DNA of 64,000 nucleotides from Acetatifactor sp. (GTDB taxonomy: Bacteria; Bacillota; Clostridia; Lachnospirales; Lachnospiraceae): contig JAFLRM010000009.1 in NCBI GenBank assembly GCA_022511465.1, positions 1-64,000 of the forward strand, in the 5' to 3' direction. Positions 25,942 through 29,113 of the stretch are shown piece by piece. The notes beneath the pieces were generated by a model. That model saw nothing but the letters and a program-made list of their open reading frames with translations. It did no database searches and was not told the DNA's origin. Every line of letters begins with the position of its first letter. Within the stretch, counting starts at the first letter, position 1. The translations under genes were made by a program, and so were the position numbers.

Positions 25942-27261
25942 TCAATGTCCATGCCGCCCGGAAAATTCCAGTGCCAGTCCGGTCAGGCATGTATCCTCAT
26001 ACTTGCTCCCGGGATAGACATCCACAATCTCAAATCGAAAACCGATCTCCCCGTTTCCAACCGCGAGAATATCCCCCTCAGGCAATGTAAAGTACTGTGG
26101 TTTTATCGTGTCCTCCAATTCCAGATAAGCATAGGGCTGATCCTCCACATACATTAAGAGGGTCTTGACCCGTCCGTTCTCCTCCCAAGTTTTATCGTTC
26201 TTTGCGTAGCCGTTTACCACACCCACTTCCAGATACCTCATATATCCGTCATAAGGATAGCCATAGTCATCTGTAGCACCAAGCATCCACCAGAGATCAC
26301 GATGATAAGCGCCCCAATCTGTAGCGACGTCATAGACAATAGATTCACCGATTCCCGCTCCCTCTGCTCCCTCTGCCCAAGCATCCGCTCTGGATAATGA
26401 ACGCAAATTGTCTGCGGAATATCTATCGCTGGAAGATGCAAGTGTGGAGGAAGCCACAAGCTGCCTCTCCATGGATCCCGCACAGAAATCCCCGCAGGGA
26501 GCATGCCATTCCGGCCAGCCAAAATCTGTGGCGTCCTCCGAATATTCCATGCTGTTAAAATGCTCGTCGTCCGCACTTTCCCCATAAAAAAACTCCTCCA
26601 CCTGCGGTGTCAAATGCAATATTTCCTCCGGATAACGGATGATCGGCGTCTTATCCATCTCTGTAAAATCAACATTGGCGACTGCCACAAAGCCGTTTTT
26701 CTCCGCGTGATCCGCCACAAGATTTTCCCCTTCTTCCAACTCCCCTTCATAACAGAAATAAAAAGGCTCCTCACACCCCGCAAAGGCATCCTTCCCGATC
26801 ACACAAGCCGTATTGGGAAAAAGTACTTTGTACAACCTCTCATTTCCCCAAAAGGCGCCCTCTCCAATCACCTCCACAGTCTCCGGAAGTATTATCTCCC
26901 AAAATTTCAGTCCTGTAAAAGCACGAGCGCCAATCTCCCTCACCGGAACACCTCCCAATTCCTCCGGAATCTCCAATTCCGATCGGGAGTGCCACTTTTT
27001 ATATCCCTCCTCCGTCATACCGGTAACCACCGCATAAGACCCACTGTCTGTTTCCTTCACCTCATAAGTAAAATATTCTACCTCCTGCTCCGCCTGCGGC
27101 ACGATTTCCTGTAAATCATTTTCCTCCAAGATTTCCTGATATACAGACTGCTCACTCTGCTCGTCACCCGGAAACTCTGCTCTATTTCCGCACGCAGTAA
27201 ACAGCAAAACCAATGCAGCGGATATTCCTAAAATTCTAACCCTATTCATTCCACTCATCAT
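25942..27261 (-). CDS. Lipoprotein with leucine-rich repeat and glycan-binding-like C-terminus
   Basis: Secreted lipoprotein of about 439 residues: signal peptide ending in the lipobox LLFTACG, a Glu/Gln-rich spacer, one to two BspA-type leucine-rich repeat units at about 105-170 (VREIGARAFTGLKFWEIILP, then VEVIGEGAFWGNERLYKVLFP), and a C-terminal domain (about 270-439). That last part has the look of the NADase-type glycan-binding domain: ASSTLASSS, a DAWAEGAEGAGIGESIVYD core, NGYAKNDKTWEENGRVKTLLM and DVYPGSKYEDTCLTGLALEF. It probably binds a polymer at the cell surface; the ligand is unknown. Several in-frame starts exist; ATG 27261 has GGATAGG upstream. The transcript may begin inside the structured element at 27330-27582. 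Confidence 0.78.
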   Translation of the reverse strand: MMSGMNRVRILGISAALVLLFTACGNRAEFPGDEQSEQSVYQEILEENDLQEIVPQAEQEVEYFTYEVKETDSGSYAVVTGMTEEGYKKWHSRSELEIPEELGGVPVREIGARAFTGLKFWEIILPETVEVIGEGAFWGNERLYKVLFPNTACVIGKDAFAGCEEPFYFCYEGELEEGENLVADHAEKNGFVAVANVDFTEMDKTPIIRYPEEILHLTPQVEEFFYGESADDEHFNSMEYSEDATDFGWPEWHAPCGDFCAGSMERQLVASSTLASSSDRYSADNLRSLSRADAWAEGAEGAGIGESIVYDVATDWGAYHRDLWWMLGATDDYGYPYDGYMRYLEVGVVNGYAKNDKTWEENGRVKTLLMYVEDQPYAYLELEDTIKPQYFTLPEGDILAVGNGEIGFRFEIVDVYPGSKYEDTCLTGLALEFSGRHGH

Positions 27262-27329
27262 TTTCACCTATCCCACATCTCCACTCATTCTATCCGTGCC
27301 ATGCCTTGTCACTTACTATCACGTCCTTC

Positions 27330-27582
27330 TTTTCGCCGCGACTCAGCCGCAGGGGTAATGTCCTTTCCGCCGACCTTGCGAAGGTTCCCCATTTTTCTTA
27401 CGTGCCGGTCAATTATTCAGGGCAAAACGGGCACGATGTTCGTTTTAGCAAGATATGCGCATGGATGCGCCACATCTTGCGGCCCGTCCCACGCCATAAA
27501 CTTCCCCGGCGCGTTAGAAAAATACGGAACCGCAGCCAGCGGTGGAAAGGACATTGCCCCTGTGGCGGCTGCCCGGCAAAAA
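27330..27582 (-). ncRNA. Candidate structured RNA or cruciform element (unrecognised)
   Basis: This is the only gene-free stretch over 300 bases (27262-27685). Two arms, 27330-27408 and 27506-27582, are imperfect inverted repeats of about 78 bases. The basal stem pairs CAGGGG and AATGTCCTTTCC with GGAAAGGACATT and CCCCTG. At the same point each arm forms its own small hairpin (27373-27385 ACCTTGCGAAGGT; 27529-27543 ACCGCAGCCAGCGGT), which gives a four-way junction. A second long stem includes ATTTTTCT / AGAAAAAT and GCCGG / CCGGC. The 97-base centre has a further stem, ACGGGC (27427-27432) / GCCCGT (27482-27487), and an apical hairpin (27448-27480). A promoter at 27596-27624 would transcribe it on the minus strand. 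It lacks the conserved cores of RNase P RNA, tmRNA and SRP RNA. It could instead be the 5' leader of the lipoprotein gene, or a palindromic mobile element. Confidence 0.55.
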
Positions 27583-27595
27583 CATCCTCACCCTT

Positions 27596-27624
27596 ATTAT
27601 ACCAAAAACAGCGACAGATTTCAC
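27596..27624 (-). promoter_or_regulatory. Promoter reading into the structured element
   Basis: Minus-strand GTGAAA (27619-27624), 17 bases, TATAAT (27596-27601) with a TGG extended -10. The start site would be near 27589, a few bases before the first arm of the inverted repeat. The -35 box lies inside the stem-loop of the preceding terminator. Confidence 0.65.
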
Positions 27625-27647
27625 CTCCGAAATCCATCGCTGTTTTT
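27604..27647 (-). terminator. Terminator of the biotin-dependent decarboxylase operon
   Basis: AAAAACAGCGA (27604-27614) pairs with TCGCTGTTTTT (27637-27647), with an inner 6-bp stem GATTTC / GAAATC. On the minus strand the stem ends in five T. It lies 38 bases after the oadA-like stop codon. Confidence 0.9.
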
Positions 27648-27685
27648 CATTTCCCTATACGTCTATAGAAAACACTTGTTATTCT

Positions 27686-29113
27686 TTACACAGGATAAGC
27701 CCCTGTCTTCGTATCAGCCTGAGACATATCAACCTTCTCCTGCTGTGCCTGACGATACTTGAAGAAATCAGTAGCAACCTGAGGGAACAATGCATAGCTC
27801 AGCACGTCCTCATCCTGCTGCTTCCACTCCTTCATCTCGCTCTCCAGCTTAGAAAGCTCATTCTCCAAAGTATCCGCATAACGGCAGGTGATGCGCTCCT
27901 CGCCGGGGATAACTTTGTCGATAACCTCCTGGCTCATGGGCTTTACGGTCTGGCCGTACTCGCCGCGAAGCATACCCTTGGTCTCCTTGGTAGCAACCTT
28001 GTATCTCTCGCCCATCAGCACATTGAATACCGCCTGCGTGCCGACAATCTGGGAAGAAGGGGTAACCAGAGGGGGCTCACCCAGATCCTTACGAACCTGA
28101 GGGATCTCTTTCAGCACATCGTAATACTTATCCTCCGCATTCTGCTCCTTCAGCTGGCTCACCATGTTGGAGAGCATACCGCCGGGTACCTGATACAAGA
28201 GAGTCTTGATATCAACGCCCATAACTCTGGGATTGAGCAGACCGCTCTTCAAACACTCATCCCTGTAAGGACGGAAGTAGTCAGCGATCTCAGCCAGCAG
28301 ATTCTGGTCGAATCCGGTATCGTAAGGAGTCCCCTTAAAGGTCTCAACCATAACCTCAGTAGCAGGCTGGGATGTTCCCATTGCGAAAGGACTTATCGCG
28401 GTGTCTATCACGTCCACACCTGCCTCTACCGCTTTCAGATAAGTCATACCTGCCACACCGGAGGTGTAGTGGGTGTGCAGCTGGATGGGCAGCTTGGTAG
28501 CACTCTTCATGGCAGAGATCATTTCGGTTGCCTTGTAGGGAACCAAAAGTCCTGCCATATCCTTGATACAGATAGAATCTGCACCCATCTCCTCAATCTT
28601 TTTAGCCATGCTGGTCCAGTACTCCAGCGTATAAGCATCGCCCAGTGTGTAAGACAGAGCGATCTGTGCGTGTCCTCTGCCCTCCTTCACCTTGAAACGG
28701 TTGGTGGCGTTTACCGCCTCCTGCAGATTGCGCAGGTCGTTCAGACAGTCGAAGATACGGATGATATCAATACCGTTGGAGATAGACTTCTGTACGAAGT
28801 AATCCACCACATCATCCGCATAAGGTCTGTAACCCAAAATATTCTGTCCGCGGAACAGCATCTGCAGTTTCGTATTCTTGAAACCGTCGCGCAGCTTTCT
28901 CAGTCTGTCCCAAGGATCTTCCTTCAGGAAACGAAGGGAAGCGTCGAACGTCGCACCGCCCCAGCACTCTACGGAGTGATAGCCAACCTTATCCATCTTA
29001 TCGATGATGGGAAGCATCAGTTCGGTAGGCATTCTGGTCGCAATCAGAGACTGGTGAGCATCACGCAAAACGGTTTCCGTAATTTTAATCGGTTTCTTAA
29101 CTTGTTCTGACAT
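27686..29113 (-). CDS. oadA: Oxaloacetate decarboxylase alpha / 5S-type 2-oxoacid carboxyltransferase
   Basis: Carboxyltransferase that moves CO2 between oxaloacetate (or pyruvate) and biotin. The TIM-barrel begins ITETVLRDAHQSLIATRMP with the metal-binding Asp, and shows RGQNILGYRPYADDVV, SICIKDMAGLLVP and LPIQLHTHYTSGVAGMTY with the metal-binding His pair. The conserved-carboxylase domain follows to about 450. At 475 residues it lacks the biotinyl domain of full OadA; that domain is encoded separately (30342-30716), as in the 5S/1.3S arrangement of Propionibacterium transcarboxylase. Last gene of a five-gene operon with the beta, biotin, gamma-like and acyl-CoA carboxyltransferase subunits. 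Confidence 0.93.
   Translation of the reverse strand: MSEQVKKPIKITETVLRDAHQSLIATRMPTELMLPIIDKMDKVGYHSVECWGGATFDASLRFLKEDPWDRLRKLRDGFKNTKLQMLFRGQNILGYRPYADDVVDYFVQKSISNGIDIIRIFDCLNDLRNLQEAVNATNRFKVKEGRGHAQIALSYTLGDAYTLEYWTSMAKKIEEMGADSICIKDMAGLLVPYKATEMISAMKSATKLPIQLHTHYTSGVAGMTYLKAVEAGVDVIDTAISPFAMGTSQPATEVMVETFKGTPYDTGFDQNLLAEIADYFRPYRDECLKSGLLNPRVMGVDIKTLLYQVPGGMLSNMVSQLKEQNAEDKYYDVLKEIPQVRKDLGEPPLVTPSSQIVGTQAVFNVLMGERYKVATKETKGMLRGEYGQTVKPMSQEVIDKVIPGEERITCRYADTLENELSKLESEMKEWKQQDEDVLSYALFPQVATDFFKYRQAQQEKVDMSQADTKTGAYPV

Follow-up and report, generated by a model that had tools for sequence, protein, structure and literature searches.

What is the large palindrome that occupies the gene-free gap at 27268-27685 of the 64,000-nucleotide stretch of Acetatifactor sp. 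DNA analysed here (the window), and is it kept as RNA or as DNA? The original prediction took it for a candidate novel structured RNA, read from the minus strand and with a promoter of its own, and named as alternatives a cis-regulatory leader of the neighbouring lipoprotein gene and a REPIN/MITE-like palindromic element. The features that bear on these readings are the following.

25942..27267, minus strand: lipoprotein gene encoding LRR_5 (BspA-type) and NADase_transloc domains; it starts 63 nt from the palindrome and is divergent from the TwoAYGGAY strand
27330..27407, plus strand: 5' arm of the long palindrome; the outer part is unique to the window copy, and 27376-27407 lies inside the Rfam model
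27376..27538, plus strand: TwoAYGGAY RNA (RF01731), full model 1-168, 77.2 bits, cut-off 43
27422..27447, plus strand: hairpin 1; its loop (27432-27438) is CACGATG, a variant that lacks GGA
27448..27481, plus strand: hairpin 2, with loop CATGGATG at 27460-27467
27505..27582, plus strand: 3' arm of the long palindrome
27596..27624, minus strand: promoter-like site with an extended -10 (GTGAAA, 17 nt, TATAAT, with a preceding TG)
27604..27647, no strand assigned: inverted repeat bordered at both ends by A/T tracts (arms 27604-27622/27629-27647)
27686..29113, minus strand: PYC_OADA gene, for a subunit of the oxaloacetate decarboxylase/pyruvate carboxylase type; convergent with the TwoAYGGAY strand

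Identity and fold of the palindrome

A cmscan of the window returned a single match above its cut-off, RF01731 (TwoAYGGAY), on the plus strand with an E value of 2.4e-11. Membership in RF01731 is defined by a score above the gathering cut-off of 43 bits over the whole model, and the window copy exceeds it across the full length of the model. It is virtually certain that the palindrome at 27330-27582 is a TwoAYGGAY copy, and it adds one more copy to an orphan family already known, which was described in 2010 with no function given (Weinberg et al. 2010, PMC2864571). Its novelty as a structured RNA, which the original prediction had itself staked on the lack of a direct Rfam match, is ruled out by that match; the statement that known RNA cores are lacking was wrong for the same reason, and the conserved strand is the plus strand, opposite to the one proposed. 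A sub-threshold match to SpF03 at 27597-27700 is due to chance (22.2 bits against a cut-off of 50). As in the published family (PMC2864571), the full-length plus-strand match has a stem that bears two hairpins, of which one keeps the AYGGAY-type loop; the window copy differs in that the other loop is ACGAT, and its palindrome extends beyond the model by 46 nt at the 5' end and 44 nt at the 3' end.

The large imperfect inverted repeat is real. The inverted-repeat arms at 27330-27372 and 27540-27582 are 79% complementary, and the 276-nt stretch folds with an energy of -144.2 kcal/mol on the minus strand and -134.0 kcal/mol on the plus strand (z = -8.2 and -9.0, respectively), with no shuffle folding equally well. 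The nested apical hairpin proposed at 27448-27480 is likewise present. The small hairpins proposed at mirrored positions both exist in the window copy (27373-27385, ACCTTGCGAAGGT; 27529-27543, ACCGCAGCCAGCGGT), but they are found together in only 2 of 66 copies and are ruled out as a structural module. Read as RNA, loop 2 of the window copy is AUGGAU, a canonical C-ANGGAU-G hexaloop of the CsrA type and the sole strict one in this copy, and loop 1 is ACGAU, a variant common in the TwoAYGGAY family, leaving GGA in one of the two loops.

The promoter that had been assigned to the element fared less well. The minus-strand extended -10 site is present, but the count of promoter-like sites is near chance (1 found vs 0.6 +/- 0.8 expected), and the site is peculiar to the window copy. 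Over 66 copies, promoter-like scores were 10.99 upstream of the arm, 11.09 on the reverse side, and 11.01 in shuffles; there was neither enrichment nor conservation of a promoter upstream of the elements, and no T-tract was conserved downstream of them. These shuffle-level scores rule out a promoter as part of the TwoAYGGAY element. The site in the window (27624-27596) overlaps the inverted repeat 27604-27622/27629-27647, which is probably a two-way terminator between the TwoAYGGAY element and the convergent carboxylase gene, and it may serve the lipoprotein gene. In the product of that gene (25942-27267), an NADase_transloc (F5/8 type C) domain occurs alongside a leucine-rich repeat of the BspA type. 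For the other neighbour, OadA relatives from named genomes belong to Lachnospiraceae, and the closest of them carries the label Acetatifactor.

Copies in the genome and their conserved structure

The Acetatifactor sp. genome holds one remnant and 17 TwoAYGGAY copies over the cut-off, which score 69-95 bits, below the scores in many relatives (up to 142 bits). The copies are intergenic, with differing neighbours and in all orientations to the neighbouring genes; the upstream neighbour is divergent in approximately 10 of 16 cases, and the downstream neighbour is convergent in approximately 10 of 16. Since the copies have different neighbours and every orientation, a cis-regulatory design is unlikely, even though the Rfam type of the family is Cis-reg; this label, which lies outside the model, does not fit the context of the 17 copies, which lack a consistent cis-regulatory position. 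The lipoprotein leader suggested by the original prediction finds no support as the design of the element, the conserved strand being plus and the orientations mixed. Plasmid and phage collections gave no match, and neither did a pattern scan of named genomes for the subfamily found here.

Covariation in homologues, another point on which the original prediction was to be judged, is present. Among 57 aligned copies from approximately 30 genomes, 12 of the 14 predicted consensus pairs show compensatory changes on both sides. Both hairpin loops keep C-ANGGA-Y-G, which equals the CsrA consensus, while the stems vary with compensation. The loops read near-invariantly C-A-N-(G)-G-A-T-G, the C, A, G, A, and G columns being invariant or nearly so and the N column between A and G being free (1.5-1.7 bits), and the loop-to-loop spacing is 28-31 nt in all copies. 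GGA is found in both loops in 39 of the 57 copies, in one loop in 15, and in neither in 3, so that at least one loop is without GGA in 18 copies, often in the variant form CACGATG.

In 16 copies from this genome, arm identity between copies is 0.57, near the random value of 0.52, compared with 0.66 for the core, and complementarity of the arms within a copy is 0.84. Pairing between the two arms of one copy averages -61.5 kcal/mol, compared with -22.7 kcal/mol when the 5' arm is matched with the arms of other copies, and the best partner was the 3' arm of the same copy in 16 of 16 tested copies. A relative, G209, carries twelve copies with cores about 90% identical and a common inner arm; around these near-identical cores (L140-L148, L068, L069, and L078), the outer 15-25 bp are unique to each copy yet self-complementary. 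Outer arms of this kind may mean that palindromes at the target are either inserted into or newly created. Candidate explanations are insertion into existing palindromes or arms created on insertion, and, alternatively, gene conversion of the core combined with fast compensatory drift of the arms. In five cases from three genomes (L063, L074, L075, L076, and L077), TwoAYGGAY copies occur as pairs approximately 180-300 nt apart and always divergent (-/+), some with near-identical cores and differing arms. At another locus (L064 in G166), two direct-tandem copies 304 nt apart have nearly identical flanks and represent a tandem duplication.

Mobility of the family

It is very likely that TwoAYGGAY, a non-coding palindrome of approximately 220-320 bp, is a mobile or dispersed element. 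The suggestion of a MITE-like palindrome is right at the level of the family, as judged from the 17 copies in this genome, recent amplification in a relative, terminal inverted repeats (TIRs), 7-bp target duplications in one genome, and a polymorphic insertion. The amplification is seen in G205, a complete genome of the same genus, where at least 30 copies, most of them near-identical, sit in an element of approximately 500 bp with the TIR TAAATGGAAAGTTAGT and flanking TA. Some 100-330 nt upstream of its core (L020 and others), the G205 element also has another long palindromic module (CCCCGTAGCCC...GGGGCTAC), and four of its copies (L027, L032, L034, and L035) have a third palindromic module downstream; neither module matched an Rfam family. 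A different arrangement is found in G122, where the arms themselves are the TIRs (GATGTTGGGGTCAAAAGG...; TIR GATGTTGGGGTC) and three copies with the same TIR end are flanked by exact 7-bp direct repeats (ATAACAT, ATTTATT, and ATAAACT). A 7-bp repeat at a fourth copy, ATATTAT, was read by eye from the sequence. In a systematic search, direct repeats of at least 6 were found at 15 of 85 copies compared with 2-8 in controls, mostly as palindrome artefacts outside G122; because palindromic arms create false direct repeats, this search is convincing only for G122.

For the window copy, no TIR with a target-site duplication was found, of the kind seen in G122 (7 bp) and G205 (TA), and the G205 TIR had no convincing match among the copies of this genome. 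The present/absent evidence for insertion concerns the copy between secA and prfB rather than the window copy: in other members of the genus with a readable junction, this intergenic gap is short and free of the element. For two of the 17 sites, a relative has an element there too: G205 at recG, and G209 at oadA, which is the window site. Because the subfamilies differ at both shared sites, the shared occupancy is likely due to separate insertions or to a site preference. Spread as a MITE-type element, or as a passenger, is evident in the relatives and would extend to the window copy.

Bacterial MITEs include the Correia, RUP, and ERIC types. TwoAYGGAY resembles them in being non-coding, palindromic, intergenic, and multicopy, with dispersed copies numbering 17 here and at least 30 in G205, and, in related genomes, in having a TIR and target duplication. 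It differs from them in that unrelated TIRs surround one and the same conserved core and in that its outer arms can be unique to a copy yet self-complementary.

Association with CsrA and flagella

CsrA is an RNA-binding protein that controls flagella and acts as a global regulator. TwoAYGGAY was proposed as a CsrA binder on motif grounds in 2014 (PMC4333381), and no later test of this link was found in the literature searched. The hexaloop that CsrA and RsmE recognise is ANGGAN, and a single dimer spans sites separated by 10-63 nt (PMC7652899), a range within which the TwoAYGGAY loop spacing of 28-31 nt falls; the hairpin stems preferred by CsrA in SELEX are shorter than those of TwoAYGGAY (PMC7652899). 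In the Campylobacter jejuni flaA leader, which is both a target and a titrator of CsrA, there are two adjacent CANGGANG hexaloops (PMC4894983). TwoAYGGAY shares with this leader, and with CsrB/C and RsmX/Y/Z, loops of neighbouring hairpins with GGA at a spacing that a dimer can bridge. It differs from the CsrA-sequestering RNAs in having two sites rather than many, long stems, and many dispersed copies, and in that a promoter and terminator of its own were not found.

What is new here is that the family is mobile and is tied to the CsrA/flagella gene set. The Acetatifactor sp. genome encodes CsrA (G000:C54:60673-60831) next to FliW. In a survey of 200 genomes of the family Lachnospiraceae, nearly one per genus, CsrA was found in 33 of 34 element-positive genomes compared with 75 of 166 element-free genomes (P = 2e-9, kinship ignored), and the element-positive genomes encoded FliW in 31 of 34 cases and flagellin in all 34. 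Outside the family but within the class, the corresponding counts for CsrA were 25 of 30 and 86 of 345 (P = 3e-10, kinship ignored), the five CsrA-free positives being mostly incomplete assemblies, although G546 is 98% and G504 is 95% complete. Within the family, the presence of CsrA is almost collinear with that of FliW and flagellin; the association therefore cannot be credited to CsrA in particular and may instead reflect motility or clade. Six TwoAYGGAY-positive genomes (G008, G037, G042, G060, G157, and G143) have divergent CsrA genes (E about 1e-13 to 1e-16), mostly alongside a typical CsrA and in several cases close to flagellin genes.

The flagellin leaders offer a further comparison. 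With an ANGGAN hexaloop on a stem of at least 4 bp and no more than 90 nt from the start as the criterion, such a hairpin was found in 8 of 20 leaders examined, compared with 0.2 expected; these were 8 of the 17 leaders from element-positive genomes and 0 of the 3 from element-free genomes. The flagellin leader of this genome has the hexaloop hairpin CAGGGAAG, and that of G122 has CATGGACG. In leaders from several Lachnospiraceae (L239-L255), ANGGAN hexaloop hairpins lie upstream of the ribosome-binding site and are candidate CsrA sites.

Proposed function and alternative explanations

Our preferred reading, to which we give a probability of about 0.5, is that the window element is one of 17 dispersed copies of TwoAYGGAY, a mobile palindrome that would act as a putative CsrA decoy when transcribed. 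For TwoAYGGAY in general, the role of CsrA decoy is put at somewhat under even odds. The conserved part of the element is two neighbouring hairpins set on a long stem, with a fixed distance between their C-ANGGA-Y-G loops. A transcript of the AYGGAY strand would present two loops that mimic the flagellin-leader site for CsrA, and together they could hold one CsrA dimer, thereby titrating CsrA. With one canonical and one degenerate loop, the window copy would be a weak decoy or a relic. A wider version of the mobile decoy, in which different MITE families of flagellated gut Clostridia carry the same hairpin pair, each jump adds a CsrA sink and so tunes motility, and the arms are renewed with each copy, is speculative, and we consider it unlikely.

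The decoy reading has weak points: the copies are not consistently oriented relative to their neighbours, one loop often lacks GGA, the stems exceed the length that CsrA prefers, and CsrA is nearly collinear with FliW and flagellin. If one RNA strand were under selection, mismatched positions should show an excess of G-U over A-C. Over 85 elements, there were 91 G-U and 73 A-C pairs (P = 0.18) compared with 7955 Watson-Crick pairs, G-U making up approximately 1% of pairs, and the hairpin pairs of the alignment held 7 G-U and 14 A-C. As G-U is not in excess of A-C, there is no visible selection on the RNA of the AYGGAY strand. This balance fits a palindrome kept at the DNA level and, with the absence of promoter enrichment and of a T-tract, is the reason that a DNA-only MITE is retained as a serious rival. 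TwoAYGGAY would then be a purely selfish palindrome whose cruciform or single-strand hairpins are recognised by a transposase or a host DNA-binding protein, the loops being the recognition sequence and CsrA being irrelevant. Pairing that is almost purely Watson-Crick and strand-symmetric, the mixed orientation of the copies, the TIRs and target duplications in relatives, and the failure to find a promoter and terminator for the element are all consistent with this explanation, which we hold to be a considerable possibility at clearly less than even odds. However, it fails to predict the ANGGA pattern with its free N, the fixed loop spacing, or the restriction to CsrA-positive, flagellated genomes, and the same core persists in elements whose TIRs are unrelated (G205 vs G122), which indicates that it is not tied to one transposase.

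A role in cis, in which copies in 5' or 3' untranslated regions would place the mRNA of a neighbour under the control of CsrA or RNase III, is improbable. The Rfam type agrees with it, Correia-type MITEs are cut by RNase III within mRNAs (PMC10969869), and in the window the good extended -10 site that faces the lipoprotein gene would put the element in the leader of that gene. Such a leader, however, would carry the complements of the loops, and no strict ANGGAN hexaloop hairpin exists on the minus strand; the varied neighbours and mixed orientations also speak against it. Least probable, in our estimation, is that the copies in this genome are degenerate remains of an ancient mobile element that no longer serve any function here. 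The absence of GGA from hairpin 1 of the window copy and the scores below those of many relatives would fit such a neutral relic, but unconstrained decay would destroy the pairing of the arms, which remains self-directed in all 16 copies tested.

The co-occurrence with CsrA, the resemblance to flagellin leaders, and the mobility of the family offer three independent and cheap routes for testing the decoy reading. Should that reading be wrong, a family listed as RNA may be a DNA palindrome that has to be relabelled. If it is true, decoys for a global RNA-binding regulator have been spread by transposition in gut bacteria.
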